64,000 nucleotides of DNA from Gammaproteobacteria bacterium (GCA_034522055.1 JAXHLS010000002.1:3181549-3245548); one strand, 5' to 3'. Shown: positions 17,447 through 38,540, counted from the first letter of the stretch. Numbers and translations are program-made. The notes: generated by a model not told the origin, from the letters alone.

Positions 17447-20400
17447 GCCGTCGGCCCAGCTATTTCGATCACATCCGCGCCAACGCTGCACGGCGCTGGG
17501 AGCAGCTTGAGCAGGATCCTGAGTTAGCAGGGCCCTGGCATCAGCTTTTTAAGCAGGTACAGAGTCCCAGGCATATTCTTTCCGAGCTTCTACAAAATGC
17601 AGATGATGCTGGTGCCACTGAGGCTCGTGTATGGGTGGCCGACGGTACGTTCAGCTTTGAGCACAACGGGGAGGATTTCACGGACGAACACTTCGCATCC
17701 CTTTGTCGTTTTGGCTATTCCAACAAAAGGGCCCTACATACTATCGGTTTTCGCGGGATTGGATTCAAGAGTACCTTCAGTCTCGGTGATCCTGTTGAAC
17801 TCTTCACACCCACACTCGCCGTTGCATTCCATCGCCGCCGTTTTACGGAACCTGTCTGGCTGGAGAATGCTCGAGAAACAAATGGCTGGACTGTGATCCG
17901 CGTCAAGATCGGAGATCGACATCGTCAAAAGGAGGTTGAGAACAATCTAAAGGAATGGATGAAGAGTCCACTGTCGCTGTTGTTCTTTCGGACTGTTCGT
18001 CGGCTACAGGTGGGAGAAAAGGCAGTCCACTGGCGTAGCTTGGGGCCAGGCCCTTTGCTTGAAAGTGAATGGATGTTGCTGAACGACGAGAGCCAGGATC
18101 CATACCTGCTGGTAAGGTCATCTCCGGAGCCATTCCCCGACGAACCACTGACCGAGATACGTCAGGAGCGCATGATCGCGGTAGAGGATGAGACAGATTT
18201 TCCTCCCTGTAAGATTGAACTCGTAATGGGTGCGCCGGGCCGCCTTTACGTGGTCCTCCCCACAGGTGTCGAGACAGAGTTGCCGTTTGCCTGCAATGCC
18301 CCTTTCATACAGGATCCCGCACGGCTAAAGATCAAGGACCCCGAGACGTCACCGACAAACCGATGGCTTCTGGAGCGTACGGGACAGGTTGCGGCATCCG
18401 CAATGCTGAAATGGCTCGGTGCGACGGGGTTGGAGGTATCCGAAAGAGCGCCCGCCTATGGATTGTTTCCAGATGTAGATCGCGATGACGATTCCCTCGA
18501 GGGTGTCTGTGGCACTGTTTGTGAAGAAGCCTTCGGTTCTGCATTAGATGAGAAGGACTTTCTACTCACAGATGATGGACGACTCGTGCCTGAGAAGCAG
18601 AGTGTGATCCTGGCAGATACGCTGCTGGACGTATGGGGAGCGGAAGAAACTACCAAGCTCTTGGATGGACAGGCAAGGCCGCCCTTGTGTCGCCATATCG
18701 ACCCGGCCCATCGGAGGAAGTTGGTTCAGTGGCGTCTGGTCGACGAGATCACCGAAACGAATGTGTTGAACACCCTGCAGGAGAAGCACCTTCCTCGCCC
18801 CGGGTCGTGGCCACAGCTGCTTCAGTTGTGGACATATCTGGCGCCCGGGCTCTTGCATTTGCGATATTTCGGAAAACCTGAAGATGTTCGTATCGTCCCT
18901 GTCCACGGAAAGAAGGTTCTTTACTCCGCCAGTGAAACCGTGCGCCTCGGTGAGAAGAGGTTACTTCAGTCGGAGTCGGACTGGGAACTGTTGGCCGAGC
19001 ATCTCCTCTTCCTGAACCAGAACTGGTTACGGTTTCTTTCAGAGCACCGGCGCTTGGGTGGCGATAAGCAGTCTTCGGAAAACAAAGCTGTAGAGGATGC
19101 GACAGGCGTCCTTGAAAAGATAGGGCTCGGTGGCGCCAGTGATGTGGACAAGGTGGTGAATCAGGTGGCGGTGCAGTTCTTTGCTCCCGGGGAGTCACTT
19201 GATATTGGGACCTGCGTCCAGCTTGCCCAAATTGCCGCGAAGCTCAATGCGCGCTTGACTGAAGAATTTCATTTCGTCACCCGCGACAGGAAACTGCGAC
19301 CAGCGTACGAGAATGTTGTTTATGACCAAGACGGCACTCTGGAGAATCTTCTTCCGGTATCAGCTCGAGACGCGCAGCTAATTCATCAGCATTACAGCCA
19401 AACGTATGTGTCTTGCTCGCCTGAGGAGTGGCGATCTTGGATTACTTCAGGGCGGGCGCTGTTACTCACACTGCCTGCCATCAATCAGGTTAGCCGAGAG
19501 ATTCGCGGTAGGGAAAAAATTAAGCAGGAGGCGCGACGGAGAGGTTATGAGGGAGCCTTGTCATTTCACTACGTGACCCATCAGTTCCGGGCTATTGATT
19601 GGGATTTCAATGAGTCTTACTGGCAACACTGGGAAGAACTTGCGAACTCAGATGAGTACGTCTGGGTTAACTTGGTTGAGCGAATTCTGACCCAGCCGGA
19701 GAGCTACTGGTCGCGTGCATTGAGCGCGCGATTGCTACAGGTGGCCACGACAGGAAGTACACGCACGTTGACTGCCGATTCCATACCTGCCACGTGGATA
19801 ATCCGACTGCAGAAGCTTCCTTGCCTGCCAGATACGCGGGGCTTTGCCCACAGGCCTGGGGATCTTTTGATGCGCACGCCGGAGACAGAGGCCCTGATGG
19901 ACGTGGAGCTTTTTGTTCACGGGCGGCTGGACCGTGAAGTCACTCGACCCCTGCTGGAGCTGCTTGGCGTAGGTTCTACGCCCACCGGCCCCGAAGGTCT
20001 CCTCAGTCGCCTTCGTGCATTGGCGCAAGCAGAGAATCCACCAATCCGAGAAGTTGAGAGGTGGTGCGGGCGCCTCGACCAACTGGCAGACAACTGTTCC
20101 ACCGCCGAGCTTTCAGCCATCAAGGAAGCATTTCAGACGGAAAGACTCGTTCTCGCCCAAGACGGTGCATGGGTGACTTCGCTAGCGGTCGCGCTGCCGG
20201 CGGAAAACGTAGAAGCCCCCGAATCCTTGCTTATTAATTCAACGCTAAGCGACTTGACCCTTTGGCGCAAAGTTGGCGTTGCCGAGCGGCCGACGGCGGA
20301 ACTCACCATTCAATGGCTGATGACCCTTCCGTCAGGCCTTGAGCTATCACAGAAGGATGCGCAACGGGTAAGAGAACTCACGGTACGCCATCCGGTGCGA

Positions 20401-21693
20401 GTCTGGGAAGAATGCGTCCACTGGATCAATCTTGCAAACGAGTGGGTACCGCTGCAAAGGCTCTCGTACTCATTGAGAATGCAGCATCTTATTCCCTGGC
20501 GTCATCTTCACAAGTGGGTAAAGCAGAAGACGGCAGATTTCCAATTCCTGTCGGCGGCGGTGGTCGATAGCAGTGGTTTTTCGAACTTGACGCCTTTGGC
20601 CCATTGCATAGAAGAACGCTTTGAGCAGGAGCCCGACGTGGCGATGGTCAAGCCGACGAGGAATTGGATGCGTGCGCTTGGGGAGGAGTTGGGTCGAGTC
20701 GAGCTGGATGACCAAGAAGAGACGGTGCGAGTTCGCCGTTGCGCCGACGCACTGGCGAGAACCAAGTGGGTGGAATGCCCCGCCATCAAGATCATTCCAT
20801 ATATTGAAGGTACCCCGGCTGGCACTCCGCAGCAAGCGGACGTCGTCTGGCGTGACATCGCCTTGTATACCGAACCGCTGTCCCAGGCGAAGCTTGCTAG
20901 GCGTGTGCCGGATGTCATTGGCAAAGTCTTCGGGCGAACAGACATCAAGGCGGCCCTCGACTACGGTTTTGAAAGGTCCATAGAAGATGTCCGTGCCTAC
21001 ATGGAGGCAAATTTTTTCTTATCTCCCGTCAGCATTGCGTGCGAGCCAGGGCAGAACGGTGAACGCACTGAAAACTCTGCTGAAGGCGACAGCCTCCAAT
21101 ATGCTATGGGGCAGGTGGATACGCCGGTAGCGTCGTCGCCGACAAACGCGGAACAGGTTTTTGCGACGAGCAACGGCGTCCAGGCCGACGTTGTAGAGGT
21201 TGGTGAAGATGAGTCTACGGACGAGCCCGCTATTGAAGAAGCGCTCGAGGATGAGCCCGCTCTCGATGAGTTTGGCGTTTCAAAATCCCCACCGAAAACG
21301 GACAGGAAGCCAGCCCAGCCCGATATCGTGGAGCGATTCGCCAAGTCGTTAGGCTTCCGGAAGGATAGCGATGCCCGTTTCTACGGCGAAGATGGTAGCT
21401 GGATAGCGAGAGCAAAGGATGCGCTTTTTCCGTGGGTACACCACGACGCTTGTGGCGAGCTCCTGAAATACTATTGGGCGAAAGACCACTGCCTGGAGCG
21501 CACACCTTTGGAGATAAAAGCCGAGATCTGGAGCTTGGTGGAGCAGCACCCTGATAGTTACGCCCTGATCCTGGCGGATACCGACGGTGCGCCCAAGGAG
21601 CTAACCGGAGAGCATTTGCGCATGATGACGAACATGGGCGAAGTGGTTCTTTATCCTGCAACCTACCGGGTCGTCCTTGCTGGGACCGGGTGA
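17443..21693 (+). CDS. Sacsin-like GHKL ATPase, giant defence-associated protein
   Basis: The 1416-residue protein starts with a sacsin/Hsp90-type ATP-binding fold: N box ILSELLQNADDAGATEARVWV near 45-65 and glycine box GFRGIGFKSTF near 102-112. The long middle is unassigned. An acidic linker (about 1230-1300) leads to a C-terminal domain containing DGSWIARAKDALFPWVHHDACGELLKYYW and YALILADTDGAP, a conserved-looking module that may be related to DUF3883-type nuclease domains. The visibly lower GC than neighbouring genes suggests separate acquisition. Coupling to the upstream helicase indicates a two-protein machine; the mechanism is not known. Confidence 0.75.
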   Translation: MSRRPSYFDHIRANAARRWEQLEQDPELAGPWHQLFKQVQSPRHILSELLQNADDAGATEARVWVADGTFSFEHNGEDFTDEHFASLCRFGYSNKRALHTIGFRGIGFKSTFSLGDPVELFTPTLAVAFHRRRFTEPVWLENARETNGWTVIRVKIGDRHRQKEVENNLKEWMKSPLSLLFFRTVRRLQVGEKAVHWRSLGPGPLLESEWMLLNDESQDPYLLVRSSPEPFPDEPLTEIRQERMIAVEDETDFPPCKIELVMGAPGRLYVVLPTGVETELPFACNAPFIQDPARLKIKDPETSPTNRWLLERTGQVAASAMLKWLGATGLEVSERAPAYGLFPDVDRDDDSLEGVCGTVCEEAFGSALDEKDFLLTDDGRLVPEKQSVILADTLLDVWGAEETTKLLDGQARPPLCRHIDPAHRRKLVQWRLVDEITETNVLNTLQEKHLPRPGSWPQLLQLWTYLAPGLLHLRYFGKPEDVRIVPVHGKKVLYSASETVRLGEKRLLQSESDWELLAEHLLFLNQNWLRFLSEHRRLGGDKQSSENKAVEDATGVLEKIGLGGASDVDKVVNQVAVQFFAPGESLDIGTCVQLAQIAAKLNARLTEEFHFVTRDRKLRPAYENVVYDQDGTLENLLPVSARDAQLIHQHYSQTYVSCSPEEWRSWITSGRALLLTLPAINQVSREIRGREKIKQEARRRGYEGALSFHYVTHQFRAIDWDFNESYWQHWEELANSDEYVWVNLVERILTQPESYWSRALSARLLQVATTGSTRTLTADSIPATWIIRLQKLPCLPDTRGFAHRPGDLLMRTPETEALMDVELFVHGRLDREVTRPLLELLGVGSTPTGPEGLLSRLRALAQAENPPIREVERWCGRLDQLADNCSTAELSAIKEAFQTERLVLAQDGAWVTSLAVALPAENVEAPESLLINSTLSDLTLWRKVGVAERPTAELTIQWLMTLPSGLELSQKDAQRVRELTVRHPVRVWEECVHWINLANEWVPLQRLSYSLRMQHLIPWRHLHKWVKQKTADFQFLSAAVVDSSGFSNLTPLAHCIEERFEQEPDVAMVKPTRNWMRALGEELGRVELDDQEETVRVRRCADALARTKWVECPAIKIIPYIEGTPAGTPQQADVVWRDIALYTEPLSQAKLARRVPDVIGKVFGRTDIKAALDYGFERSIEDVRAYMEANFFLSPVSIACEPGQNGERTENSAEGDSLQYAMGQVDTPVASSPTNAEQVFATSNGVQADVVEVGEDESTDEPAIEEALEDEPALDEFGVSKSPPKTDRKPAQPDIVERFAKSLGFRKDSDARFYGEDGSWIARAKDALFPWVHHDACGELLKYYWAKDHCLERTPLEIKAEIWSLVEQHPDSYALILADTDGAPKELTGEHLRMMTNMGEVVLYPATYRVVLAGTG

Positions 21694-21865: not shown

Positions 21866-21889
21866 GTAAGGAAGTAATGCATTCCTTAC
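21866..21889 (+). promoter_or_regulatory. Palindromic operator upstream of the MazE-like gene
   Basis: GTAAGGAA and TTCCTTAC form eight-base perfect arms around an eight-base spacer, 13 bp before the ATG at 21903. Position and symmetry fit autoregulation by the AbrB/MazE-type protein. It stands in front of the long downstream run of defence genes. A 60-codon frame starting at 21695 covers part of the gap but has no family signal. Confidence 0.6.
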
Positions 21890-21902: not shown

Positions 21903-22133
21903 ATGACCAAAGTCGCCAAGATCACCGCCAAGGGCCAGACCACCATCCCCCGTGTGGTCCGCTCCGCCCTCCACGTGGAGCCGGGTGACCTCATCGCCTG
22001 GGAAGTACAGGATGATGGCACGGTCACCGTGCGGCGGGTGCAGCCGGCGGACCTGGAGTACCTGCAGGCGGTGGAGGGCACCTTGTCCGAGTGGTCGGGG
22101 CCGGAGGACGAGGAGGCCTACCGTGAGCTTTGA
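21903..22133 (+). CDS. AbrB/MazE-type antitoxin
   Basis: The 76-residue protein has the swapped-hairpin DNA-binding fold: KITAKGQTTIPRVVRSALHVEPGDLIAWEV followed by TVTVRRV. The acidic C terminus (EWSGPEDEEAYREL) is the usual toxin-binding tail. It overlaps the downstream toxin gene by 11 bases, and a palindromic operator lies just upstream. Confidence 0.82.
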   Translation: MTKVAKITAKGQTTIPRVVRSALHVEPGDLIAWEVQDDGTVTVRRVQPADLEYLQAVEGTLSEWSGPEDEEAYREL

Positions 22134-22512
22134 GCGCTTCACCATCGTCAAGGTCCCCTTTCCGTTCTCGGACCGTAATGCCCGGAAGAACCGGCCGGCG
22201 CTGGTGCTCTCCGCCGCGGAGCCTTTCAACATTCCGGCGGCTCACTCCGTCATGGCCATGATTACGTCCGCCGCCAACGCGCCCTGGCCGCTGGACTGCG
22301 AGCTTGAGGACCTGGAGGCGGCGGGTCTTCCCGCGCCCTCCAAGGTGCGCTTCAAGTTGTTCACCCTGGATCACCGCCTCGTGCGGGACCGGCTGGGGCA
22401 GCTTGGGCCCAGGGACCGCCGTACCGTGGAGGCCGGGCTGGCCAGCCTGTTCGGACAAACCCTGTCACGTAAGCAGACGGACAAGCGTCGTGGCACTACA
22501 GGACCATCCTGA
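22123..22512 (+). CDS. MazF/PemK-like endoribonuclease toxin
   Basis: The 129-residue protein starts at GTG 22123 with AGGAGG upstream. It has the MazF-type beta barrel pattern: VKVPFPFSDRNARKNRPALVLS at the N terminus, a central MAMITSA strand, and KVRFKLFTLDHRLVRDRLGQL. The Arg-rich first loop and the K/R before the FTLD strand match the toxin family. Members cleave mRNA. The stop overlaps the ATG of the next gene, so the toxin-antitoxin pair is physically joined to the ATPase/TOPRIM and methylase genes. Confidence 0.78.
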   Translation: MSFERFTIVKVPFPFSDRNARKNRPALVLSAAEPFNIPAAHSVMAMITSAANAPWPLDCELEDLEAAGLPAPSKVRFKLFTLDHRLVRDRLGQLGPRDRRTVEAGLASLFGQTLSRKQTDKRRGTTGPS

Positions 22513-23672
22513 TGGGTGAAGAAAAGGGCAAGCCCGCCTACGTCAGCCGGCTGCACCTCAAGAACTGGCAAAACTTCCGCGAGGTCGACGTGGCGCTCCA
22601 GCGGCGTTGCTTCCTGGTGGGCCCGAACGCCAGCGGTAAGTCAAACCTCCTTGGCAGCCTGCGGTTCCTGCATGACCTGACCGCCGTCGGGGGTGGCTTG
22701 CAGGAGGCGGTTTCCCGGCGCCATGGTGTCTCTGCCTTGCGTTGCCTTGCGGCGCGCAAGTACAGCGATATCGAAATACAGGCCGATCTCCGCAATGAGC
22801 AAATTGATACGGTCTGGCAATACCACCTGGTGTTCACCCAGGACAACCGGCGGCGCCCCATCATCAGGAAGGAGGTCGTGAGCCGCGATGGGGACGTGCT
22901 GCTCACGCGGCCCGATCCGGATGACGACGCTGATCCCGAGCGCCTCACCCAGACCTACCTGGAGCAAGTCAATGCCAACCGGGCCTTCCGGGAGGTGGCG
23001 GAGTTTTTCTCCTCCGTCAGGTATCTACACCTGGTGCCCCAACTCGTGCGCGAGCCCGACCGGTCCGTGGGGAGGGTGCGCGACCCGTATGGCGGGGATT
23101 TCCTCGAGCAGCTCGCCGCCGCGCCGGAAAAGACGCGGTCGGCCCGCCTGCGAAAGATCCGTGAAGCGCTCAAGGTTGCCGTACCCCAGCTCAGCGAGCT
23201 GGAACTCTCGCGGGACGCCCGGGGCACGCCCCACCTCAGGGGTCGCTATGAGCACTGGCGTCCCCAGGGCGCATGGCAGCAGGAGGACCAGTTCTCCGAC
23301 GGTACCCTGCGGCTCCTTGGTCTGCTGTGGTCGCTACTGGACGGCGGTGGCCCGTTGCTCCTGGAAGAGCCGGAACTCTCACTTCACCCCGAGGTGGTCA
23401 AGGTCATCCCGCGGATGTTTCAACGAGTGCAGCAGAAGGCACACCGTCAGGTGCTGGTGAGCACTCATTCGGACGACCTGCTGGCGGACGAGGGCATCGG
23501 GTTGGACGAGGTGATCCTCCTGGAGCCCAGCCCGGAGGGAACGAAGGCGAGATCCGCTGCGGGCCTCGCCGACGTGGAAGCGTTGTTGAGCGGGGGCGTG
23601 AGTCTCGGCGAGGCCGTGCTTCCCAAGACCCGTCCCGGAAGCGTGGCCCAGCTGGCCCTCTTTGATCGTTGA
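22512..23672 (+). CDS. AAA-21/OLD-like ABC-type ATPase
   Basis: The 386-residue protein has an SMC/Rad50-style nucleotide site: Walker A GPNASGKSN near 36, a signature-like FSDGTLR near 257, Walker B LLLEEPELSLHP near 283 and the H switch STHSDD near 316. It lacks the C-terminal nuclease of full OLD proteins, which appears to be supplied by the next gene. Split ATPase plus TOPRIM-type partner pairs are seen in PARIS and AbiL abortive systems. It overlaps the MazF-like gene by one base and is separated from its partner by three. Confidence 0.82.
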   Translation: MGEEKGKPAYVSRLHLKNWQNFREVDVALQRRCFLVGPNASGKSNLLGSLRFLHDLTAVGGGLQEAVSRRHGVSALRCLAARKYSDIEIQADLRNEQIDTVWQYHLVFTQDNRRRPIIRKEVVSRDGDVLLTRPDPDDDADPERLTQTYLEQVNANRAFREVAEFFSSVRYLHLVPQLVREPDRSVGRVRDPYGGDFLEQLAAAPEKTRSARLRKIREALKVAVPQLSELELSRDARGTPHLRGRYEHWRPQGAWQQEDQFSDGTLRLLGLLWSLLDGGGPLLLEEPELSLHPEVVKVIPRMFQRVQQKAHRQVLVSTHSDDLLADEGIGLDEVILLEPSPEGTKARSAAGLADVEALLSGGVSLGEAVLPKTRPGSVAQLALFDR

Positions 23673-23675
23673 GCA

Positions 23676-24281
23676 ATGAGTGTTCGAGCAGTGGTCGAGG
23701 GACCGATCGACGAGGCCGTGATGGCGGTCCTGGTGGCTGCGGCAGGAGGGGTGTTGACGGAGATTTATAAGAAGAACGGGAAGCCGGCGGTGCGCAAGGG
23801 GATCAGGGGCTACGACCAGGCGGCCCGCACCACCGGCACGCCCTGGGTCGTGCTGCTGGACCTGGACCGGGACGCAGACTGTGCCGTGCCCTTTTGCCGC
23901 GAGCTGTTGTGCGACCCGGCACCGACCCTCTGCCTGCGGGTGGCGGTCCGCGCCGTGGAGGCTTGGTTGCTGGCGGATGCCGAGCGGCTGGCCGGCTGGT
24001 TCAGGGTCAGCCCCGGTCGCATCCCGCCGGACCCCGAGGCCCTGCCGGATCCCAAGCGTGCCTTTGTTGACCTGTGCCGGAGGTCGCGGAGCAGCAGGAT
24101 CAAGGCCGCCATGGTTCCCCGGCCGGGCAGCGGTCGGGCGGTGGGCGCGGGCTATACCAACGAGGTCATCGACTTCGTCACCGATCCGCAGGACGGCTGG
24201 CGCCCCGGCGTGGCGGCTGGCCGGGCGGACAGCCTTCGCAGGGCATTCGGATGCATAGGACGACTGGTACATAACCCATGA
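23676..24281 (+). CDS. TOPRIM-like/DUF4276-like partner of the ATPase
   Basis: The 201-residue protein fits a TOPRIM-type active site, with E8 in VVEGPIDEA and the acidic trio D62-x-D64-x-D66 in [25 protein letters not shown] near 88-105 is typical of DUF4276/RloB-type proteins. Such proteins are nucleases or effectors released by an ATPase partner. The gene is squeezed between the ATPase (three-base gap) and the methylase (ATGA overlap). Assignment to PARIS or AbiL specifically is not possible by eye. Confidence 0.65.
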
Positions 24282-27200
24282 AGACCCGCAAGAAGCTCAT
24301 AGAGGTGGCCCTGCCGCTGGACGCGATCAACGTGGCCAGTGCGCGGGAGAAGTCCATCCGCCACGGGCACCCGTCCACATTGCACCTGTGGTGGGCGCGG
24401 CGGCCGCTGGCGGCGGCGCGGGCGGTGATCTTCGCCCAGATGGTGGACGACCCCTCGGAGTATGTGGACGTGCTGCTCTCGGACCCGGCAAAGAAGCGGG
24501 CGGCCCAGCGGCTGTTGAAGACGCGCCTGGCGGAGCACGATGCGAAGCGCGCGCTCTCGGAGGAGGACGCTGCGGCCGAGCCCGTGCCCACCCTTGAAGA
24601 GGTCATCGCCGAGCTGGAGCGAGACCGGCTGTTCGGGATCATCGAGGAGTTGGTGAAGTGGGAGAATACCACCAACGAGGTGGTGCTCCAGCGAGCCCGT
24701 GCCGAGATCTGGCAGAGTTGGCGCCGTACCTGCGCCGACAACGCGGGCCACCCGCGGGCCGCGGAGCTGTTCGACCGCAACAAGCTGCCCGCTTTCCACG
24801 ATCCTTTCGCCGGCGGCGGCGCCCTGCCCCTGGAGGCCCAGCGCCTGGGGCTGGAGGCCCATGCCTCGGACCTCAACCCGGTGGCGGTGCTCATCAACAA
24901 GGCCATGATCGAGATCCCTCCCAAGTTCGCCGGGATGCCGCCCGTCCATCCCGATGATGGAGCCCTCGCCCCCCCAAGGGGGAGCAGGAAGGGTAAGGGA
25001 GCGATGTTCCAACGGGAATGGAAGGGGGCCCAGGGCCTCGCCGAGGATGTGCGCTACTACGGCCGGTGGATGCGGGACGAGGCAGAAAAGCGCATCGGCC
25101 ATTTGTACCCGCCCATCGAGGTCACAGCGAAGATGGCGAAGGAACGGCCGGACCTGAAGAAGTACGTGGGCCGCAAGCTCACCGTCATCGCCTGGTTGTG
25201 GGCGCGCACGGTGAAGAGCCCGAACCCCGCCTTTCGGGATGTGGACGTGCCGCTCGCGTCTACCTTTATGCTTTCCACCAAGAAGGGTAAAGAGGCGTAT
25301 GTGGAGCCCGTGGTGGGCAGTGGTTACCGATTCAACGTCGAGGTGGGTAAGCCCGCGGACGCCGAAACGGCGAAGCGAGGGACTGGTGCTGGTAAGCGCC
25401 ATGCTTTTCGTTGCCTGATGTCGGATGTGCCGATTTCCTACGATTACATTCGGTCCGAGGGCAAAGCCGGGCATATGGGGGCGCGGTTGATGGCAATCGT
25501 GGCCGAGGGTGATCGCGGACGCGTCTATCTGGCGCCCACGCGGGAGCATGAGTCTTTAGCACGCGAAGCCAAGCCGGAATGGATACCGGATATGGTGTTG
25601 CCTGATAACCCCAGGGACTTCAAGACTCCGAACTATGGTCTGAAGACCTACGGCGATCTCTTCACCCCTCGCCAACTCGTGGCACTGGACACCTTCTCCG
25701 ACCTGGTGCAGGAGGCTCGGGAGCGGGTGCGGCGTGATGCTGGGGAGGCGGGCGAGGAGTGGAGAAAAGTGAGCAATGAGTCCGATCCGCTCACTACTCA
25801 CTCCTCCGAACTAACTTATTTAGCCGACGGTGGCAGTGGCGCCACGGCCTATGCTGACGCCTTGGCCGCGATGCTGGCATTCACCGTTTCGCGACTTGCT
25901 GATCGTTGTTCCAATATCTGTTCCTGGGACCTCCGCGACGGGCAAGGACGAAAGCCCGGAATTCGGAATGTCTTTTCACGGCAGGCAATCCCTATGGCAT
26001 GGGACTATGCAGAGGCCAACCCTCTCTCCGAGATTGCGGCCAGCCTCGCGAGCGCGATTTCGAGGGTCTCCGATGTCCTGGAACGTTTGCCGGTCTTCGG
26101 CGCAGGCTGTGCTGCGCTTGCAGACGCAGCAGCGCAGAACGTAAGTGATGGCAAAATCGTTTCTACCGATCCACCCTATTACGACAATATCGGCTACGCC
26201 GACCTCTCAGACTTCTTCTACGTGTGGTTGCGCCGTTCCCTGAAGTCTGTATTCCCTGGCCTGTTCTCTACCCTGGCCGTGCCTAAGGCCGAGGAGTTGG
26301 TGGCTACCCCCTACCGCCACGGCACGAAGGACAAGGCCGAGGCATTCTTCCTCGACGGCATGTCCCGGGCCATGCATCGCTTGGCCCAGCAGGCACACCC
26401 AGCCTTTCCCGTCACTATCTACTACGCCTTCAAGCAGTCGGAACGGAAGGGCGACGCGGGGACGTCGTCCACCGGCTGGGAGACCTTTCTCGATGCGGTG
26501 ATTCGTGCTGGTTTTGGGGTTAGTGGAACGTGGCCCATGCGCACAGAACTGGGCAATCGGATGATTGGCTCGGGCACCAACGCCCTGGCCTCCAGCATCA
26601 TCCTCGTCTGCCGCCCGCGCCTGGAGAATGCCCCCACTGCAACACGGCGAGAATTCCTCACCGCCCTCAAGATGGAACTCCCCGCGGCCTTGAAACATCT
26701 TCAGCGTGGCAACATCGCCCCTGTGGACCTGGCCCAAGCGGCTATCGGGCCGGGGATGGGGGTCTACACCCACTTCGAGAAGGTCATCGACGCCTCGGGC
26801 AAGCCGGTGTCGGTGCGGGAGGCCCTGGCCCTCATCAACCAGGTGCTGGACGAGGCCCTGGCGGAGCAGGAAGGCGACTTCGATGCGGACTCGCGCTGGG
26901 CCCTGGCGTGGTTCGAGCAGAGCGGGTTCGCGGCAGGGGAGTTCGGTGTCGCCGACGTGCTGGCGCGGGCCAAGAACACCAGCGTCGCCGGCATGGTGGA
27001 GGCGGGCTTCCTGGCCTCGAAGGCGGGCAAGGTGCGGTTGCTGCGGCCCGTCGAGTTGCCGGAGGACTGGGACCCGGCCACCGATCCGCGTCTGACGGTG
27101 TGGGAGATGGTCCATCACCTCATCCGTGTGCTGGAGGCCGGCGGCGAGAGTGCCGCAGCGGGGCTGGCAGCCAAGCTGGGTGCCAAGGCCGAGGTGGCCC

Positions 27201-27361
27201 GGGAGCTGGCCTACCGCCTCTACACCCTGTGCGAGCGCAAGAAGCGCGCCCCGGAGGCCCTGGCCTACAATGCACTGGTCCAGAGTTGGCCCGAGATCCT
27301 GCGCCTGGCGCGGGAGAGCGGCGAGGCGCAGGACCCGGGGGCACAGGCGGAACTGCTGTAA
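24278..27361 (+). CDS. DUF1156 DNA methyltransferase (COG1743 type)
   Basis: The 1027-residue enzyme begins with the DUF1156 signature, including [21 protein letters not shown] and the [15 protein letters not shown] block. It has the AdoMet-binding motif [17 protein letters not shown] near 175 and the catalytic motif DPPYYDN near 631, as in N6-adenine or N4-cytosine methylases. Family members pair with DUF499 ATPases and SNF2 helicases in predicted phage-defence operons, where they presumably mark self DNA. The target site is not visible. The start overlaps the preceding gene as ATGA, and the MntA gene follows after 12 bases. Confidence 0.88.
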
Positions 27362-27373
27362 CGGAGGGTAACG

Positions 27374-27679
27374 ATGCACCCGAGTCTGAATATGGACGCC
27401 AAAAGACTGACTCAGTTCTGCCGGGCCTACCGCGTTCGCCGCCTGTCTCTATTCGGATCCCAACTGAGGGGAGCCGCCCGGCCGGACAGCGACATCGACC
27501 TGCTGGTGGAGTTCGAGCCCGCGGCCCGGCCGACTTTCCTCGATTTGGCCCAGATGGAAATGGAGCTTTCCGAGGCCATGGGCGGGCGCAAGGTGGACTT
27601 GCGCACGCCGCGGGATCTGAGCCGCCATTTCCGCGACGAGGTGGTGCGTACGGCCGAGGTGCAGTATGTCGCCGAATGA
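27374..27679 (+). CDS. mntA: MntA-type nucleotidyltransferase antitoxin
   Basis: The 101-residue minimal nucleotidyltransferase has the exact GS-x10-D-x-D motif (G28-S29, D40, D42). MntA proteins add AMP to a tyrosine of the partner HepT and so silence it. The HepT gene overlaps its end by 14 bases. AACGGAGGG precedes the ATG. The pair sits inside the methylase-ATPase-helicase operon rather than beside it. Confidence 0.88.
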   Translation: MHPSLNMDAKRLTQFCRAYRVRRLSLFGSQLRGAARPDSDIDLLVEFEPAARPTFLDLAQMEMELSEAMGGRKVDLRTPRDLSRHFRDEVVRTAEVQYVAE

Positions 27680-28007
27680 CCGATACCGCCTCCGGCACAT
27701 GGCGGAGGCGGCCGAGGCGGCGCTGCAATTCGTCCAGGGTCGCAGGCGCGAGGATCTGGACCATGATCGGCAGCTCGTCATGGCCCTCACCCGGGCCGTC
27801 GAGATCGTGGGTGAGGCGGCGACGCAAGTGAGCGCGGCGGGGCGGACCGAGCTGCCGGACATCCCCTGGGCGCAGATCACCGGCATGCGTAACCGCCTGG
27901 TGCACGCCTATTTCGACGTCGACCTGGACATTCTGTGGGATACCGTAGAACTCGCGCTGCCGCCACTCCTGGCGAAATTGCAGCGCGCCCTAAAGGACAA
28001 TCAGTAA
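27666..28007 (+). CDS. hepT: HepT-type HEPN ribonuclease toxin
   Basis: The 113-residue helical protein carries R75-x4-H80-x-Y82 (RNRLVHAY), the full HepT signature with the tyrosine that MntA modifies. Active HepT cleaves RNA. All key residues are intact, so the toxin should be functional. It ends two bases before the ATG of the Swt1-DUF499 gene. Confidence 0.88.
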   Translation: MSPNDRYRLRHMAEAAEAALQFVQGRRREDLDHDRQLVMALTRAVEIVGEAATQVSAAGRTELPDIPWAQITGMRNRLVHAYFDVDLDILWDTVELALPPLLAKLQRALKDNQ

Positions 28008-28009
28008 TC

Positions 28010-31000
28010 ATGGCCATATCCAACCACGAACGCGTCGGCAAGGCGCTGGACCTTCTGAGAACGGGGCTCGGGCCCTTCGTGGAGCGCGAGATCAAGAGCG
28101 CGCTGGAGAGGGGCCACGGCGTCGCGGTCATGCGGGGCTTCATGGAAGACCCCATGGCGAAGGACAAGCCGGTGAGCCAGTGGGACACGGCGCTGCTTCT
28201 CAAGGCCATGTGGGAGTCCTGGAACGAGGTGTTCCGGCAAATCCTGGGGCCGGCGGAGCGCAGCCTGGTGGGTGAGCTGCGGGGCTACCGCAACCGCTGG
28301 GCCCACCAGGAGACCTTCTCGGGTGACGATGCGGACCGCGCGCTGGACTCCAGCGAGCGTCTGCTCGCCGCCGTGTCCGCGCCTGAGGCCGAGGAGGTCA
28401 AGAAGATGAAGATGGAGCTCAGGCGGCTCATCTTCGACGAACAGGTGCGCAGTGAGCGGCGCAAGTCATCCGGCTCGGCCATCGAGAGCGCGGCAGCAGG
28501 TGCGCTGAAGCCCTGGCGGGAGGTCATCGCCCCTCACAGGGACGTGGCCAGCGGCCGCTACCAGCAGGCGGAGTTCGCCGCCGATCTGTGGCAGGTGCAT
28601 TTGGGCGAGGGCACGGACGAGTACCGGGACCCGGTGGAGTTCTTCCGCCGCACGTACCTTACAGAGAGCCTCAGGAGCCTGCTGGTAGGGGCCGTGCAGC
28701 GTATCACGGGGCAGGGCGGCGACCCGGTGGTGCAGCTTCAGACCAACTTCGGCGGCGGCAAGACCCATTCCATGCTCGCCCTTTACCACCTGTTCTCGGG
28801 CACGCCCGCCAAGGACCTAGTGGGTATCGAGGCGGTGCTGGAGGAGGCGGCCGTGGAGACCCTGCCCACGGTAAAGCCCGTGGTGCTCGTGGGCAACAAG
28901 ATCTCGCCCGGAAACCCGGCCACCAAGCCGGACGGTACGGTCATCCACACCCTGTGGGGGGAGCTGGCGTGGCAGCTCGGAGGACAGCAGGCCTACGAGC
29001 GCGTCCGCCACGACGACGAGCGAGCCACCAGCCCGGGTGACGTGATCCGGGAACTCTTCAAGGCGTACGGCCCGTGCCTGGTGCTGGTGGACGAGTGGGT
29101 GGCCTACGCCCGTCAGCTCCACGATGACAGCGATCTGCCGGCGGGTGGGTTCGAGACCCAGTTCAGCTTTGCCCAGGTGCTCACCGAGTCGGCCAAACTG
29201 GCGGGCAACTGCCTGCTGGTCATCAGCCTGCCGGCCTCGGACGTGGCGGGCTCGTCGCCCCACGCCCAGGCGGACGACGTGGAGGTGGGCGGGGCCCGCG
29301 GGCGGGAGGCCCTGGATCGCCTGCGCAACGTGGTGGGTCGGGTGGAGTCCTCCTGGCGCCCGGCGAGCGCCGAGGAGGGCTTCGAGATCGTGCGGCGGCG
29401 CCTGTTCGAGCCCCTGGTCGATCCGGCCCACTTCAAGGACCGTGACGTGGTGGCGCGGGCCTTCGCGGATCTGTACCGCACCCAGCACCAGGAGTTTCCC
29501 GCGGAATGCCGCGACTCGGACTACGAGAAGCGGATCCGTGCCGCCTACCCCATCCATCCCGAGGTATTCGACCGGCTCTACACCGAGTGGTCGACCCTGG
29601 TGAAGTTCCAGCGCACCCGCGGCGTGCTGCGCCTCATGGCCGCGGTCATCCACAGCCTGTGGGAGAAGGGAGACCGCAACCCCCTCATCATGCCGGCGAA
29701 CATCCCCATCGACGATCGGCGGGTGCAGTCCGAGCTGACCCGCTATCTGTCCGACAACTGGGTGCCCATCATCGAGAAGGACGTGGATGGCCCCAGCTCC
29801 CTCCCCATGGAAATCGATGGCCACCATTCGAACCTGGGCAAGTATGCCGCCTGCCGCCGGGTGGCCCGGACCATCTACATGGGCTCGGCCCCCACCCCCA
29901 GCGTCGCCAACCGAGGGCTGGAGGATCGCCGGGTAAAGCTGGGCTGCGTCATGCCCGGCGAGTCGCCGGCAATCTTCGGCGATGCCCTGCGCCGCCTGGC
30001 CGGGGCGGCCACCTACCTGTACCAGGACGGCCCGCGCTACTGGTATTCCACCCAGCCCACCGTGACCAAGCTGGCGGAGGACCGTGCCGAGCAGCTCAAG
30101 CGCGACCCGGACAAGGTGATTCACGAGCTGGAACAGCGCCTGCGCAAGGACCTGGCAACCCGTGGAGACTTCCCGCGTATCCACCCCTTGCCGGCGACCA
30201 GCAGCGACGTGCCCGACGATCTCGACGCCCGGCTGGTGGTGCTGGGCATCGACCAGCCCTACAGCAAGGAGGCCGGCAACGCCGCCGTGACCGCCGCCAA
30301 GGGGATCCTTGAGAGCCGGGGAACGACACCACGCCTGTACCGCAACACGCTGGTTTTCCTCGCGGCCGACAAGTCGCGCTATCAGGATCTGGACGATGCC
30401 CTGCGACGGTACGTGGCCTGGGATTCGATCCTGGCCGAGAAGGACACCCTGGACCTGTCGCCACACCAGGTAAAGCAGGCGGAGACCCAGAAGGGGGCGG
30501 TGGACGGCGCCGTGGTGGCGCGCCTGCCCGAGACCTACCAGTGGCTGCTGGTACCGGTGCAGGAGACGCCACAGGCGGCGATAGAGTGGCTGCCGATACG
30601 CCTCAGCGGTCGGGATGCCCTGGCCGTGCGGGCGAGCAGGAAGCTGAAGAGCGAGGAGCTGCTGATCGCCCAACTCGCGGGTACCCGCCTGCGCATGGAG
30701 TTGGACCGCGTGCCCCTGTGGCGTGGTGACCATGTCTCCGTCCATCAACTGGTGGAGGATTTCGCGCGCTACCTGTACCTGCCACGGTTGCAGGGGCCCC
30801 ACGTTTTGGCCGAGGCGGTTCAGGACGGTGTGAAACTCCTTACCTGGCCCCAGGACACTTTCGCATACGCCGACAGCCATGACGAAGCCGCACAGCGCTA
30901 TCGCGGGCTGCGTGGCGGCCAGCTGGTATCCGTGGACGAGGACTCCAACGGCCTGCTGGTGCTGCCGGAGGTCGCTCAGGGGCAGCTGCGCGAAGAGGAA

Positions 31001-31345
31001 GGTGGCGCCAGGCCGGATCTGAAGCCGTCCCCCGGAGGGCCGGACGGTGGTGACACCGGGAAGGCCGGGGGAGACACATCGGAAGACGATGAGCACCAGG
31101 CACCGGCGCGGCCTACCCGCTTCCACGGCACCGTGGATCTATCCCCAGAGCGCGCAGGCCGGGATGCCGGACGTATCGCGGAGGAGGTCATCGCCCATCT
31201 GTCGGGCGTGGTGGGTACCGAGGTGACGGTGACCCTGGAGATCGAGGCGCACATCCCCGACGGCGCCTCTGAGCAGCTGGTGCGCACAGTCATCGAGAAT
31301 GCCCGAACCCTTAAGTTCAAGAGCCAGGGATTTGAGACGGAGTAG
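28010..31345 (+). CDS. Swt1-HEPN/DUF499 AAA+ ATPase (COG1483 type)
   Basis: The 1111-residue protein has an N-terminal Swt1-type helical domain (about 1-150, with FVEREI and RNRWAHQETFS, itself an R-x4-H HEPN-like motif) followed by the DUF499 ATPase. Walker A is NFGGGKTHS near 243-251 and the Walker B region LVLVDEWVAYARQL is near 355. The C-terminal half is unassigned, with a low-complexity acidic linker near 1000-1040 and a short beta domain at the end. DUF499 proteins occur with DUF1156 methylases and helicases and are thought to be motor or sensor subunits of a defence complex. Confidence 0.85.
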   Translation: MAISNHERVGKALDLLRTGLGPFVEREIKSALERGHGVAVMRGFMEDPMAKDKPVSQWDTALLLKAMWESWNEVFRQILGPAERSLVGELRGYRNRWAHQETFSGDDADRALDSSERLLAAVSAPEAEEVKKMKMELRRLIFDEQVRSERRKSSGSAIESAAAGALKPWREVIAPHRDVASGRYQQAEFAADLWQVHLGEGTDEYRDPVEFFRRTYLTESLRSLLVGAVQRITGQGGDPVVQLQTNFGGGKTHSMLALYHLFSGTPAKDLVGIEAVLEEAAVETLPTVKPVVLVGNKISPGNPATKPDGTVIHTLWGELAWQLGGQQAYERVRHDDERATSPGDVIRELFKAYGPCLVLVDEWVAYARQLHDDSDLPAGGFETQFSFAQVLTESAKLAGNCLLVISLPASDVAGSSPHAQADDVEVGGARGREALDRLRNVVGRVESSWRPASAEEGFEIVRRRLFEPLVDPAHFKDRDVVARAFADLYRTQHQEFPAECRDSDYEKRIRAAYPIHPEVFDRLYTEWSTLVKFQRTRGVLRLMAAVIHSLWEKGDRNPLIMPANIPIDDRRVQSELTRYLSDNWVPIIEKDVDGPSSLPMEIDGHHSNLGKYAACRRVARTIYMGSAPTPSVANRGLEDRRVKLGCVMPGESPAIFGDALRRLAGAATYLYQDGPRYWYSTQPTVTKLAEDRAEQLKRDPDKVIHELEQRLRKDLATRGDFPRIHPLPATSSDVPDDLDARLVVLGIDQPYSKEAGNAAVTAAKGILESRGTTPRLYRNTLVFLAADKSRYQDLDDALRRYVAWDSILAEKDTLDLSPHQVKQAETQKGAVDGAVVARLPETYQWLLVPVQETPQAAIEWLPIRLSGRDALAVRASRKLKSEELLIAQLAGTRLRMELDRVPLWRGDHVSVHQLVEDFARYLYLPRLQGPHVLAEAVQDGVKLLTWPQDTFAYADSHDEAAQRYRGLRGGQLVSVDEDSNGLLVLPEVAQGQLREEEGGARPDLKPSPGGPDGGDTGKAGGDTSEDDEHQAPARPTRFHGTVDLSPERAGRDAGRIAEEVIAHLSGVVGTEVTVTLEIEAHIPDGASEQLVRTVIENARTLKFKSQGFETE

Positions 31346-31354
31346 ACGCGCTGA

Positions 31355-31375
31355 GGCCCGGCCATTGGCCGGACC
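31355..31375. repeat. Strong GC hairpin in the gap after DUF499
   Basis: GGCCCGGCC and GGCCGGACC form a nine-base stem with one mismatch around three bases. There is no T run, so it probably stabilises or pauses transcription rather than ending it. Confidence 0.4.
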
Positions 31376-31426
31376 GTCGCCGTCCGACCTACGGATGGAC
31401 CGGCCCACTCGGGAGGCTGTGGACAG

Positions 31427-32938
31427 ATGACAAGAGTGGATGCAGGACAGGAAACCGCCGCGGTTTGCACTGCGGCTCATGAGCTGGTGGAAAAGGGCCG
31501 GGCGTTGGAGGCCGCGGAGCTTCTGGGCCGCGCGCTCGCTACCAGCCCGGGCGAGCCGCGCCTGCTGCGCTGGCTCGGCCGCGCCTACCTGGCGGCCGGC
31601 CTGCCGGAGCTCGCCGCCCGGTACTTGGAGGAAGCGCTGCAGGGAATGAAGGGCGGGACTGCGCCGGCGCATGTGACTGCGCCGGAATCGGAGCAACCAC
31701 ACGACCCCTATCTTCGGCTCATCGAGCAGGAGGACCAACAGATCCGCGCCAGGCGACGGTTCTTCGGCGCCGCGGAGCTGGAGGAGGATCCTCCCGCTGC
31801 CAGTCCGGGCACGGACTCTTCAGGAGAGCCTGCGCGGCACCTGCCGGCGACACCGCTTCCACTGCCCGCGAGGACGCCGAGCTTCTCGTCAATTATGGGC
31901 AAGGAACGGAAGTCACGCCCGCCCTCCACGGTCGTTCCCTTCCAGGGAGAGCTGGACCTCACCGCGGGCATTTCCGCGGGCCCCGGCTCCGATGACACCG
32001 ACCAGTTGGACCTTATCGAGGAAACGATCGATCACTCGGCTGTGGAGGACCTGCTTGCATGGGAGCCTGCGACGGACGACGCCGGCGGTGCGGCGGAGGC
32101 CATGGATGAGCTTTCCGAAGAAGACGAGGATCTGACGGAAACAGCCGATTCACTGGCGGGTGGTGCGGTCGATGTGGACGAGGACTGGGCCGACTTTGCC
32201 CTCGCCGGTGCCGATCCCGAGGAGGCACCGACACGGGAAGAAGTGCTCGCGGAGGTGCGGACCGGCGGACGGCTGAGCCGGGCGGAGCGTGCGCGCCAGG
32301 TGGCCATCAAGGTCGGGCTTCGGTTTGACTGGGACGAGGAAGACATCGAGCTCCTGACCGAAGTGTTCACCCTACACTGGTGGAGCGCCGCGCGGGTCGC
32401 CATGGAACGGGAGCTCACGGCCGGCATGACGCCCGCGGAGCTGTGGGGTGCTTTACAGTGCCGGGAGATCTGGCGCTCCCGCCCCGCGTTCGCCACGGAC
32501 TTGGGCTACCGCTACTCGTGGCTCGGCCAGATGACGGGTACGGCATGGCCCATCTACCGGAATCTCGACTGGCCCACTGCGCTGGCGCTGGTTCGTGCCT
32601 TCGGCGGCGACATCGAGCCCGCCGAGGTTGCCACCTTCCTTGATGATCTGTATGACCGTTGGTATAGCGAGAACGCGAAGACGGGTATGGCCGATTCCTT
32701 CTATAAGTACCTGCAGTCCCACGTCGGGCGAAGCCGTGGCAGCCTGCGGGACTGGCCTGGCTGGTCATTCGAGCAACCGGAATGGGACCCGTGGAATGAG
32801 GCTGGCGGCGGCCAGACTGGCTACTCGACCCGAGAGTACCGTTGGCTTGCAGAGAACAACCTCATTCCCGACCTTCTGAGTTCCTCCCTCCCTCTCTCGG
32901 CCATGCGCTTCCCCGACGACATAGGAGGGGACGAATGA
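31427..32938 (+). CDS. Unrecognised TPR-start, acidic-middle protein of the defence operon
   Basis: The 503-residue protein has a short TPR-like start (about 12-70, ALEAAELLGRALATSPGEPRLL), a disordered acidic middle (about 120-285) rich in Asp, Glu and Pro, and a folded C-terminal part (about 285-480) with repeated tryptophans (LHWWSAARVAM, SWLGQMTGTAWPIYRNLDWP, FEQPEWDPWNEAG). GGGAGG precedes the start. The stop overlaps the helicase start as ATGA with AGGAGG nearby. Its fixed place between the DUF499 ATPase and helicase suggests an adaptor. I do not recognise the C-terminal domain. Confidence 0.7.
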   Translation: MTRVDAGQETAAVCTAAHELVEKGRALEAAELLGRALATSPGEPRLLRWLGRAYLAAGLPELAARYLEEALQGMKGGTAPAHVTAPESEQPHDPYLRLIEQEDQQIRARRRFFGAAELEEDPPAASPGTDSSGEPARHLPATPLPLPARTPSFSSIMGKERKSRPPSTVVPFQGELDLTAGISAGPGSDDTDQLDLIEETIDHSAVEDLLAWEPATDDAGGAAEAMDELSEEDEDLTETADSLAGGAVDVDEDWADFALAGADPEEAPTREEVLAEVRTGGRLSRAERARQVAIKVGLRFDWDEEDIELLTEVFTLHWWSAARVAMERELTAGMTPAELWGALQCREIWRSRPAFATDLGYRYSWLGQMTGTAWPIYRNLDWPTALALVRAFGGDIEPAEVATFLDDLYDRWYSENAKTGMADSFYKYLQSHVGRSRGSLRDWPGWSFEQPEWDPWNEAGGGQTGYSTREYRWLAENNLIPDLLSSSLPLSAMRFPDDIGGDE

Positions 32939-35760
32939 CGCTCGCACCGCCCTTGTCATTGGTAGTTGGGGCATGGGTGGTGCACCGTAGCACCGAAAAG
33001 CTCGGCAGAGTCGTGGCGCAGGGTGACGGGACGGGACCACAGACGGTGCAGGTGGAGTGGAACCATGATCGTCGCCGCGAGTGGATCGACATCCACAAGT
33101 TGAGATGCGGCTTTCGGCTCCGCATGCATGTCCAGGACGTTCCGCGCTCCCGTGTCCGGCGGTCCCTCGGGGAGGGTGTCGTGGTCGAGACGCGGATCCT
33201 CGGCGGGCGGGAACAGGTGCTGGTTGAGTTCCCCTGGCGCGGCGAGCGCCTCTGGCTGCCGTGGGAGAACCTGCGACAGGTCAACGCGGTCAAGCATCGC
33301 TTCTTGATCCCCCAGCCGGGCCAGACAGGCGATGCCGAGGCCTTCCGGCTACGGAACCTGGCCCACGCCCTGGAGATGTGGAACGAGAATACGGGCTCAC
33401 TATCCCATCTCGACATCGATCCGCTGCCTCACCAGATCCACTTGGTCCACCACATCCTGGCCTCCGGCAACCTGAACTGGCTTATCGCTGACGACGTGGG
33501 GTTGGGCAAGACCATCGAGGTGGGCATGCTGCTGGCGGCCCTGAGGCAGCGCGGACAGTTCCGCCGCATCCTGCTGGTGACCCCTGCCGGTCTGACTCGC
33601 CAGTGGCAGGACGAGCTGCGCATAAAGTTCGGTATGGACGAGTTCCAGATCCATGGTCGCGATTTCGAAATACACGATCCTGGACACTGGAAACTCCATG
33701 ATTGCGTTATCGGCTCCATCGACCGCTTGAAGATGGTTGACCACCGGGAGTCGTTGCTGCAGGCGGAGCCGTGGGACCTCATCGTATTCGACGAGGCCCA
33801 CCGCTTGTCGCGGCGACAATGGGGCAGCAAGCTGGAGGCAGCGGAGCGCTACAAGCTGGCGGGCGCGCTGCGGCACCGGACAGACTCATTGCTGCTATTG
33901 AGTGCTACGCCCCATCAGGGGATGCAAGACAAGTTTCAGGCCCTTCTGGAGTTGTTGCGCCCGGAATGGCGGCGAGAGATTACGGCACTGCAGCTCAATC
34001 CGGAAATCTTGCGCGAAATGATTATCCGCAATCACAAGGCGGACGTGACGGACTCGGAAGGTAACTTCATCTTCAAGGGCAAAACCACGAGCGCTGTCCG
34101 GGTACCCGTGGCGAAAGATGCGAAGGAGTTCGACCGCCAACTCGGTGACTACATCCGGCGCGGCTACGCGGCAAGCGAGCGCTTGGGTCGCAAGGGCAAC
34201 GCCATCGGCTTCGTCATGACCATCTACCGCAAGCTAGCCGCCTCCAGCGCGGCCGCGATCCATCAAGCACTGGGCCGGCGCATGGAGCGGCTGCGGCTGG
34301 AGCAGGTCGTCCACACGGCTCTGCCGAGTGATGAAGAGCCCGATGAGCGTTACCTGGGGGAGTGGGAGGAGACTTTCGAGGCCTCGGACAAAGAGTTCTT
34401 CGAGGGTGAAATTGCCCTGCTGGAGGAACTCATACAGGCTGCGGAGACCTTGCTGCGCAACGATCTCAAGCTAAAGGCCTTCATTGATGAGCTTCTCGCC
34501 ACCGTCCTGGCCGAGGACGGTAAAAGGAAGGTGGTGGTATTCACGGAGTACAGGGCCACCCAGGCCTATATCGCCAACACCCTGGAGAGACATTTCGGGC
34601 CGGGCGCGGCGGAGCTGTTGCACGGCAGTCTCTCAACAGACGAGCGCCGCGAGGCCATCTCCCGCTTCGAGGACGCGGCCCAATTTCTGGTCTCCACTGA
34701 GGCAGGCGGTGAAGGTATAAACCTTCACCGTCGCTGCCACGTGATGGTGAATTACGACCTACCCTGGAACCCCATGCGCCTCGTTCAGCGAATCGGGCGC
34801 CTCTATCGCTACGGTCAACAGCACCGCGTCATCGTGTTCAACATCCATTCACCGCAGACGCTGGATGGCAAGATCATGGACCACATGTACACTCGTATAC
34901 TCCAGGTGGTCCAGGACATGTCGGTACTGGGCAGGGAGTTCAACGAAAAGCTGGCGGACGACATCCTCGGGGAGCTGGCAGATCTACTGGATGTGGAGAG
35001 CATCCTGGAAGAGGCGGCGGACGCTACGGAGCCCCGTACCCTGGACCGGTTGGAGGAGGCGCTGGCGCGCGCCAGAGGGGCAGTAGAGAAGCAGCGCGAG
35101 CTGTTCCAGCACGTGCGGGGTTTCGACCCCGATGAGCTTCGCTACGAGCTGCGGATCACAAGTGCCCACGTGGAGACCTTCGCCGCGGGCATGCTGACGC
35201 AGCTCGGAGCAGAGGTCCGCAAGTCCCATGGCGAACTGCTGTGGGAGGTGAGGCTTCCCGAGTCTTTGCTGAATGATCTGCCGGGAACGCGCCCCCGTTG
35301 GCGGGTGACTCCGGACAGGGTGTGGGCTACCAATCGCCGCGATGTGGAGGCGCTCGACATGTCCTCGCCGTTGATGCGCCTACTGCTCCAACGCGCTCGC
35401 AGCTACGACTTCGGCGGGCAGGTGGCGGCCCTGGAGGGGATGGAAGGTAGTGCCGTGCTCACTGCCATCCTGCGCTGGCAGAACGAGCAGGGCAGGCGCA
35501 TGCGCCAGGAGTTCTTCGCGGCCCGGGTCCTGGATGATGGAACGGTGGAAGAGAACGCTGACGCCTTCAGCCGCTGGCTGTTGTCCCCTGCCTCCGGCGG
35601 TACCATGCTACCCGAGGGGGAGACGGCCAAGACCTGGCTGAAGGCCGCTCGTAACGCAGCTGAGCTGCGATTGGGCCGGCTGAGCAATAAAGACCTTCAC
35701 CCCGAGAGCCGGCAGTGGCTGAGCGGAGGGTGGCTGACACCGACATCAGGCACAGATTAG
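32935..35760 (+). CDS. Second SNF2-type helicase (DrmD-like)
   Basis: The 941-residue ATPase has an N-terminal CapR/SH3-like region (about 10-110), Walker A DDVGLGKT near 186, DEAH near 286, LLSATPHQGMQDKF, and motif VI QRIGRLYRYGQ near 618. It lacks the DUF3883 found on the helicase at 13868, so the two are diverged paralogues, not a recent duplication. SNF2 helicases of this type accompany DUF1156 and DUF499 in predicted defence operons. It is the last gene of the block, overlapping the preceding gene by four bases. A longer start at 32842 was rejected because AGGAGGGG fits 32935. Confidence 0.85.
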   Translation: MTLAPPLSLVVGAWVVHRSTEKLGRVVAQGDGTGPQTVQVEWNHDRRREWIDIHKLRCGFRLRMHVQDVPRSRVRRSLGEGVVVETRILGGREQVLVEFPWRGERLWLPWENLRQVNAVKHRFLIPQPGQTGDAEAFRLRNLAHALEMWNENTGSLSHLDIDPLPHQIHLVHHILASGNLNWLIADDVGLGKTIEVGMLLAALRQRGQFRRILLVTPAGLTRQWQDELRIKFGMDEFQIHGRDFEIHDPGHWKLHDCVIGSIDRLKMVDHRESLLQAEPWDLIVFDEAHRLSRRQWGSKLEAAERYKLAGALRHRTDSLLLLSATPHQGMQDKFQALLELLRPEWRREITALQLNPEILREMIIRNHKADVTDSEGNFIFKGKTTSAVRVPVAKDAKEFDRQLGDYIRRGYAASERLGRKGNAIGFVMTIYRKLAASSAAAIHQALGRRMERLRLEQVVHTALPSDEEPDERYLGEWEETFEASDKEFFEGEIALLEELIQAAETLLRNDLKLKAFIDELLATVLAEDGKRKVVVFTEYRATQAYIANTLERHFGPGAAELLHGSLSTDERREAISRFEDAAQFLVSTEAGGEGINLHRRCHVMVNYDLPWNPMRLVQRIGRLYRYGQQHRVIVFNIHSPQTLDGKIMDHMYTRILQVVQDMSVLGREFNEKLADDILGELADLLDVESILEEAADATEPRTLDRLEEALARARGAVEKQRELFQHVRGFDPDELRYELRITSAHVETFAAGMLTQLGAEVRKSHGELLWEVRLPESLLNDLPGTRPRWRVTPDRVWATNRRDVEALDMSSPLMRLLLQRARSYDFGGQVAALEGMEGSAVLTAILRWQNEQGRRMRQEFFAARVLDDGTVEENADAFSRWLLSPASGGTMLPEGETAKTWLKAARNAAELRLGRLSNKDLHPESRQWLSGGWLTPTSGTD

Positions 35761-36740: not shown

Positions 36741-36773
36741 GCCCCAGCCCCCTGCGCCCGGCGGATACTGTGC

Positions 36774-38150: not shown

Positions 38151-38155
38151 GCCCG

Positions 38156-38389: not shown

Positions 38390-38540
38390 TGTATGTACAC
38401 CCGTAGTACGGTTTGCAGTATATGGGGCGGGACACCGCCGGGCAACCGCGTCCTGCCGCGAGTTGGTGCGCAATCTGAACAGAACAAGTTAGAGAACGAC
38501 TTGAGATCGGCGCGAATCGGGAGAGAGAGGCATTCCAACT

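Follow-up and report, generated by a model that had tools for sequence, protein, structure and literature searches.

The 64,000-nt window of a Gammaproteobacteria bacterium analysed here (GCA_034522055.1 JAXHLS010000002.1:3181549-3245548; all coordinates count from the window start) contains a complete Hma system, also named a Type-1 DUF499/BREX-related system, and comparison with related loci indicates that the operon of this anti-phage system has probably taken up further modules. Seven genes forming four modules and spanning ca. 7.5 kb are embedded within HmaA-HmaB-HmaC (Table 1): the HmaA-HmaB interval contains a sacsin-type GHKL ATPase, a MazE/MazF toxin-antitoxin (TA) pair and the HEC-01A/HEC-01B pair, HEC standing for Hma-embedded candidate (PMC12988326), and the HmaB-HmaC interval contains MntA/HepT. 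A two-gene TPR-helicase unit lies behind the core.

A first-pass annotation of this DNA had delimited an operon of ten genes on one strand at 21903-35760. All ten genes are indeed found at these positions on the + strand, but the operon starts ca. 8 kb further upstream, with HmaA at 13868. Its family calls for MazE, PemK/MazF, the AAA_21 ATPase, DUF1156, NTP_transf_2, the HepT-like protein and DUF499 were upheld by profile searches, and MntA/HepT (27374-28007) does lie between the methylase and the ATPase. The MazE/MazF and ATPase/TOPRIM-like pairs were likewise correctly placed ahead of the methylase, although HmaA and the sacsin-type GHKL ATPase further upstream had been overlooked. Junctions are mostly tight, as it had described, with overlaps of 4 nt between the end of HmaA and the start of the GHKL ATPase gene, 11 nt for mazE/mazF, 1 nt for mazF/HEC-01A, 4 nt for HEC-01B/HmaB, 14 nt for MntA/HepT and 4 nt for TPR/helicase, the exceptions being gaps of 209 nt ahead of MazE and 81 nt behind HmaC. 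No internal sigma-70 promoter or terminator scored above chance in the operon.

The motifs checked in HmaA, HmaB and HmaC are all intact. The E-x-K-type motif of HmaA is kept in 52/52 relatives and the R and H of the HmaC HEPN domain in 60 of 64; this domain, which the first-pass annotation had missed, is the commonest built-in RNase of these operons. The methylase and DUF499 ATPase recognised at that stage do belong to a complete Hma core, but the SNF2 helicase picked with them (32935-35760) is not HmaA, since it matches the HmaA profile with 292 bits versus 1700, has no C-terminal nuclease and pairs with a TPR gene elsewhere. The Type-2 marker DUF3780 gave no Pfam hit in the operon, and neither Pfam nor PADLOC profiles detected PglZ/BrxZ, the Type-3/BREX marker, so that the locus is not classed as BREX. 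Assignment to DISARM was also rejected, both helicases scoring under the DrmD cutoff (381 and 318 versus 610) and the matches listed including neither DrmB nor DrmC.

Hma was named in PMC8565338 and described as Type-1 DUF499-centred BREX-related (BR) systems in PMC12839542, where HEPN-fused DUF499 ATPases are reported in 1370 taxa. The locus shares with Hma/Type-1 BR the helicase-nuclease HmaA, the DUF1156 protein HmaB and a DUF499 protein with N-terminal HEPN domain, HmaC, in that order, but adds the seven embedded genes. One of these encodes the additional GHKL ATPase of sacsin type, and neither "sacsin" nor "GHKL" appears in the main text of PMC12839542. Embedding in Hma operons is an already known kind of layout, for which PMC12988326 cites, under the term guilt-by-embedding, a preprint by Payne et al. 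2024 (bioRxiv 10.1101/2024.01.29.577857).

Table 1. Features of the Hma locus and of the helicase unit behind it, with the matches on which each assignment is based
Feature	Position	Strand	Evidence
HmaA, SNF2 helicase with C-terminal NOV_C/PD-(D/E)XK-type domain (IEVKG)	13868..17446	+	PADLOC HmaA 1699.7 bits over 1-1190; NOV_C; DEAH, GKT, EVKG motifs
Sacsin-type GHKL ATPase (TmtA-like), 1416 aa, restriction endonuclease-like C-terminal fold, catalytic residues apparently degenerate	17443..21693	+	NCBIfam P_loop_sacsin 75 bits (cutoff 50)
MazE operator-like perfect inverted repeat GTAAGGAA-N8-TTCCTTAC	21866..21889	.	single copy in window, 0 expected by chance
MazE/PrlF-type antitoxin	21903..22133	+	PF15937 and PF04014 above cutoffs
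PemK/MazF toxin, GTG start	22123..22512	+	PF02452 51.7 bits
HEC-01A, OLD/AbiEii-like AAA_21 ATPase	22512..23672	+	PADLOC HEC-01A 520.8 bits; AAA_21 116 bits; Walker A GPNASGKS, Walker B LLLEEPE
HEC-01B, TOPRIM-like protein (E8, D62xD64)	23676..24281	+	PADLOC HEC-01B 174.8 bits
HmaB, DUF1156 adenine-type DNA methyltransferase	24278..27361	+	PADLOC HmaB 1541 bits; PF06634 95 bits; DPFAGGG, DPPY motifs
MntA-like minimal nucleotidyltransferase, GSx10DxD intact	27374..27679	+	PF18765/PF01909; PADLOC PDC-S09
HepT-like HEPN RNase, RNRLVHAY intact	27666..28007	+	PF01934 86 bits; motif
HmaC, DUF499 ATPase with N-terminal Swt1-like HEPN domain (RNRWAH)	28010..31345	+	PADLOC HmaC 1171 bits; HEPN_Swt1 117-120 bits
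TPR-containing partner of separate two-gene helicase unit	31427..32938	+	TPR_16/TPR_19
RapA/DrmD-like SNF2 helicase without C-terminal nuclease	32935..35760	+	BrxHI 333 bits, HmaA 292 bits

The embedding was assessed in 80 named loci fetched by HmaB similarity (56-73% HmaB identity), among which synteny is conserved. The slot between HmaA and HmaB (A-B), counted over 58 loci with both genes on the contig after removal of one duplicate and taken as filled when at least 150 bp were inserted, is occupied in 49 of them, and that between HmaB and HmaC (B-C) in ca. 30 of 68, two or three of the 32 counted being split genes or empty gaps; neither slot is filled in 8 of the 53 loci in which both gaps are visible. 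Most inserts bear no relation to one another, and many match known defence or TA families, namely AriA/HEC-01A, AbiL, RloB, GmrSD, Schlafen, PDC-S09 and HEC-02/03/05. When mapped on the HmaB tree, the presence of a TmtA-like gene in A-B requires at least six gains or losses and that of MntA/HepT in B-C at least five. The window, with 7 embedded genes, exceeds the maximum of 6 found among the 53 comparable loci by a simple automated caller that undercounts small genes. Its order is met once more in a Competibacteraceae locus (L109), which reads HmaA-MazE-MazF-ATPase-partner-HmaB with a partner of the RloB type. That the embedded genes represent coincidental defence-island neighbours devoid of functional meaning is very improbable: the region does lie near an integrase and the TPR-helicase pair appears to be an unconnected neighbour, but the inserts are found between core genes, overlap them by start and stop codons, recur across phyla and have the same orientation as the core in 137 cases versus 19 (uncertain small open reading frames included), and the slot statistics disfavour such an explanation.

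Two of the four modules are TA pairs. In the first case, MntA/HepT resembles the type VII TA by its GSx10DxD and RX4HXY motifs, its Pfam families and its overlapping genes, and differs in being located inside an Hma operon and in scoring under the NCBIfam equivalog cutoffs (49.9 and 35.5 versus 60), which is why the names MntA-like and HepT-like are used. Plasmid records containing HepT relatives number 1429, versus 55 with HmaB, and among the Hma relatives the pair was seen in no slot other than B-C (8 loci, against none in A-B; Fisher p = 0.0003, relatedness ignored). In the second case, MazE/MazF corresponds to the PrlF-PemK type in its families, its 11-nt overlap and its operator inverted repeat, but sits inside an Hma operon, an order met elsewhere only in L109; MazF relatives were found in 12 plasmid records and in none of the HmaB records. 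The control region of MazEF most likely came with the pair, as suggested by the recurrence of the inverted repeat ahead of MazE in L109 (21/24 positions identical) and by the same operator half-sites preceding a free-standing MazE homologue (L180); no complete copy of the repeat is present in the nearest homologue from a plasmid (L179). An operator of its own would also be expected if the TA pairs chiefly served to prevent loss of the operon or of the integrative element, with little contribution to phage defence, and two further TA pairs (Xre/RES and RHH/PemK) together with a tRNA-end remnant do occur near the integrase. Such a role is nevertheless doubtful given that MntA/HepT recurs in the same operon slot in at least 8 loci and that the inserted modules mostly belong to defence families.

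The GHKL ATPase follows a different pattern. Its full-length relatives were found only in Hma loci, mostly directly behind HmaA. The A-B slot holds every relative retrieved without using HmaB (those of Bradyrhizobium, Niveispirillum (= G902) and G091, plus a shortened copy in G491) and six of seven detected via HmaB; the seventh copy (L102) is located after HmaC. No full-length relative was detected outside Hma in plasmids, three genome samples and viral contigs, which does not fit a free cargo gene; the ATPase rather seems to move between Hma operons. It is because of this restriction to Hma operons, mostly right behind HmaA, that the gene could represent an optional fourth part of Hma. Two parts, the HEPN domain of HmaC and the GHKL ATPase, both overlooked in the first-pass annotation, have evidence of integration. 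The PADLOC TmtA profile matches the ATPase with 193 bits over its N-terminal part only (best stretch, residues 40-449 of 1416), so that it was not considered a full-length TmtA, a system name that was not found in papers. Its C-terminal domain was modelled with a predicted local distance difference test (pLDDT) of 90.8, and the best Foldseek matches, albeit weak (E 0.03-0.05), are D212/Hjc nucleases. These are Holliday-junction resolvase-type nucleases. An active nuclease was nonetheless rejected, since the fold resembles Hjc/D212 but the PD-(D/E)XK residues are not conserved. In the window, the ATPase gene has a GC content at third codon positions of 0.60 versus 0.78-0.87 in the flanking Hma core genes. 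The shortened copy in G491 (490 aa, internally shortened) belongs to an Hma locus (L153:4021-10596) in which the HmaB match covers just 537 aa and which is apparently decaying.

HEC-01A and HEC-01B are neighbouring genes, as required for HEC-01. The presence of the pair inside an Hma operon, and the embedding itself, agree with what is described for HEC-01 as an Hma-embedded candidate; here the pair was also met beside type I and type III-like restriction-modification (R-M) genes, a point that the full preprint may already hold. HEC-01B exceeded 100 bits in three genomes besides the window's own (four loci; 180 genomes of the class), and no HmaB match was found in those three. In three of these loci the pair directly adjoins HsdM (L175), a Mod-type methylase (L177) or a Res subunit (L178), contig ends hiding the remainder, and the fourth (L176) has no R-M neighbour; plasmids and viral contigs yielded no relatives. 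Alignment of HEC-01B revealed an invariant E8 and the DxD motif in six of seven sequences, and its AlphaFold2 model (pLDDT 83.8) has an alternating beta-alpha topology, in line with the earlier TOPRIM-like label, but a Foldseek search gave no significant fold match in the PDB and the label is not supported by that route. The pair resembles PARIS (AriA/AriB) in combining an AAA_21 ATPase, here matching AriA at 113 bits, with a TOPRIM-like partner; it was not classed as PARIS proper because HEC-01B gave no AriB hit, and the window pair differs further by its location between restriction-type genes. PARIS responds to the anti-restriction protein Ocr (PMC12409363). Because of the AriA-like ATPase, this response to Ocr and the R-M genes adjoining three of the four non-Hma loci, our best guess, drawn from a small sample, is a guard role for HEC-01, which among the embedded cassettes is the strongest candidate for sensing, as PARIS does, phage inhibitors of methylase-based defence.

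These data bear on the interpretation given in the first-pass annotation, namely a modification-based core with built-in suicide backups, coupled to the Hma core by physical contact or regulation and set off by a block or loss of HmaB, HmaC or HmaA. The idea is plausible and its general form already published, PMC12839542 having proposed auxiliary and backup effectors with MNT-HEPN and OLD-TOPRIM pairs among them. Toxin-like modules do lie within the operon and slots are filled in relatives; overlapping genes, consistently occupied slots, the adjacency of HEC-01 to methylase or restriction genes not only in Hma but also in type I and type III-like systems, and the sensing of Ocr by PARIS all fit such backups. 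Wiring to core loss, however, was not borne out. Each module is absent from most relatives, although the slots are often filled otherwise; MntA/HepT and MazF often occur where Hma is absent, and MazEF retains its operator. Backups wired in this way are therefore regarded as improbable, and wiring specific to this core is unlikely because the slots mostly hold different modules that appear to have been gained and lost repeatedly. Cargo acting on its own triggers would fit better than wired suicide switches, since the modules are exchangeable, mostly free-living (HEC-01B included, in genomes that gave no HmaB match) and mostly absent from relatives.

Some points weigh against an Hma operon that simply took up modules. 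The tight gene overlaps could be a sign of functional coupling of the cargo; the loci were picked by HmaB similarity, which limits the slot statistics to this clade; few independent loci stand behind the Hma-only pattern of the GHKL ATPase (G091, G491, Niveispirillum, Bradyrhizobium and the seven found via HmaB), and its divergence tracks that of the core loosely (r 0.42-0.57 versus 0.92-0.96 among core genes).

If modules were indeed taken up by a functional Hma operon, HmaB would, from family knowledge and PMC12839542, methylate self DNA, the HmaC ATPase would assemble a scanning complex on unmodified phage DNA and the helicase-nuclease HmaA would degrade that DNA, with the HEPN domain of HmaC presumably cleaving RNA as a last resort. 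MazEF, HEC-01 and MntA/HepT would be cassettes responding to their own triggers and embedded for co-inheritance and co-expression. A more far-reaching proposal, to which we give low credence, combines an undescribed four-gene Hma form (HmaA-GHKL ATPase-HmaB-HmaC, the ATPase being Hma-only and carrying a degenerate nuclease-like tail) with HEC-01 as a general guard of methylase-based immunity, which would have been acquired next to the methylase or restriction genes of Hma, type I or type III-like systems and would kill the cell when phages inhibit them.

The locus can be viewed as a naturally stacked case of restriction-like systems gathering secondary defences. It makes testable whether embedded modules respond when the host system fails or simply ride along, a question so far argued from neighbourhoods; handles are offered by the operator ahead of MazE, by the HEC-01 pairs in restriction operons of three types and by the ATPase found only in Hma. 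Four points may be new, namely this ATPase, the occurrence of HEC-01 next to restriction genes of other systems, the conservation of the MazE operator, and the TPR-helicase pair as a unit of its own.

This TPR-helicase unit (31427-35760) is a candidate for an unnamed defence module. The pair occurs without Hma on the Nitrosococcus plasmid pNHAL01 (L123), beside Dsr1 and with a helicase 61% identical to that of the window, and likewise in L124, L125 and L126, which come from a further three genomes of the class. In two Deinococcus plasmids the helicase is found behind a longer, weakly similar partner of 1300 aa. As a pair, the unit is not covered by PADLOC.

Directly behind the defence genes, an Xre/MbcA/ParS antitoxin and a RES-domain toxin form a pair at 36303-37241, and an RHH antitoxin with a PemK/MazF toxin occurs on the - strand at 37803-38473, beside a tyrosine integrase (39325-40650, - strand). 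Ca. 190 nt from the latter, positions 40843-40885 contain the 3' end of a tRNA gene, with 26/27 bases as in the intact tRNA-Lys at G000:C2:3070226, which is likely an attachment-site remnant at one edge of an integrative element. The other edge was not found, no convincing long direct repeats bounding the island were detected, and in a search for an empty site in the same genus the right flank alone could be matched. Finally, the region upstream of HmaA encodes a WYL-domain regulator (5587-6696; PADLOC WYL 121 bits), an ADP-ribosylglycohydrolase (8520-9533) and a VIT/VWA-domain protein (10994-13516); a WYL gene is also present ahead of HmaA in L145, the Hma locus of Bradyrhizobium.

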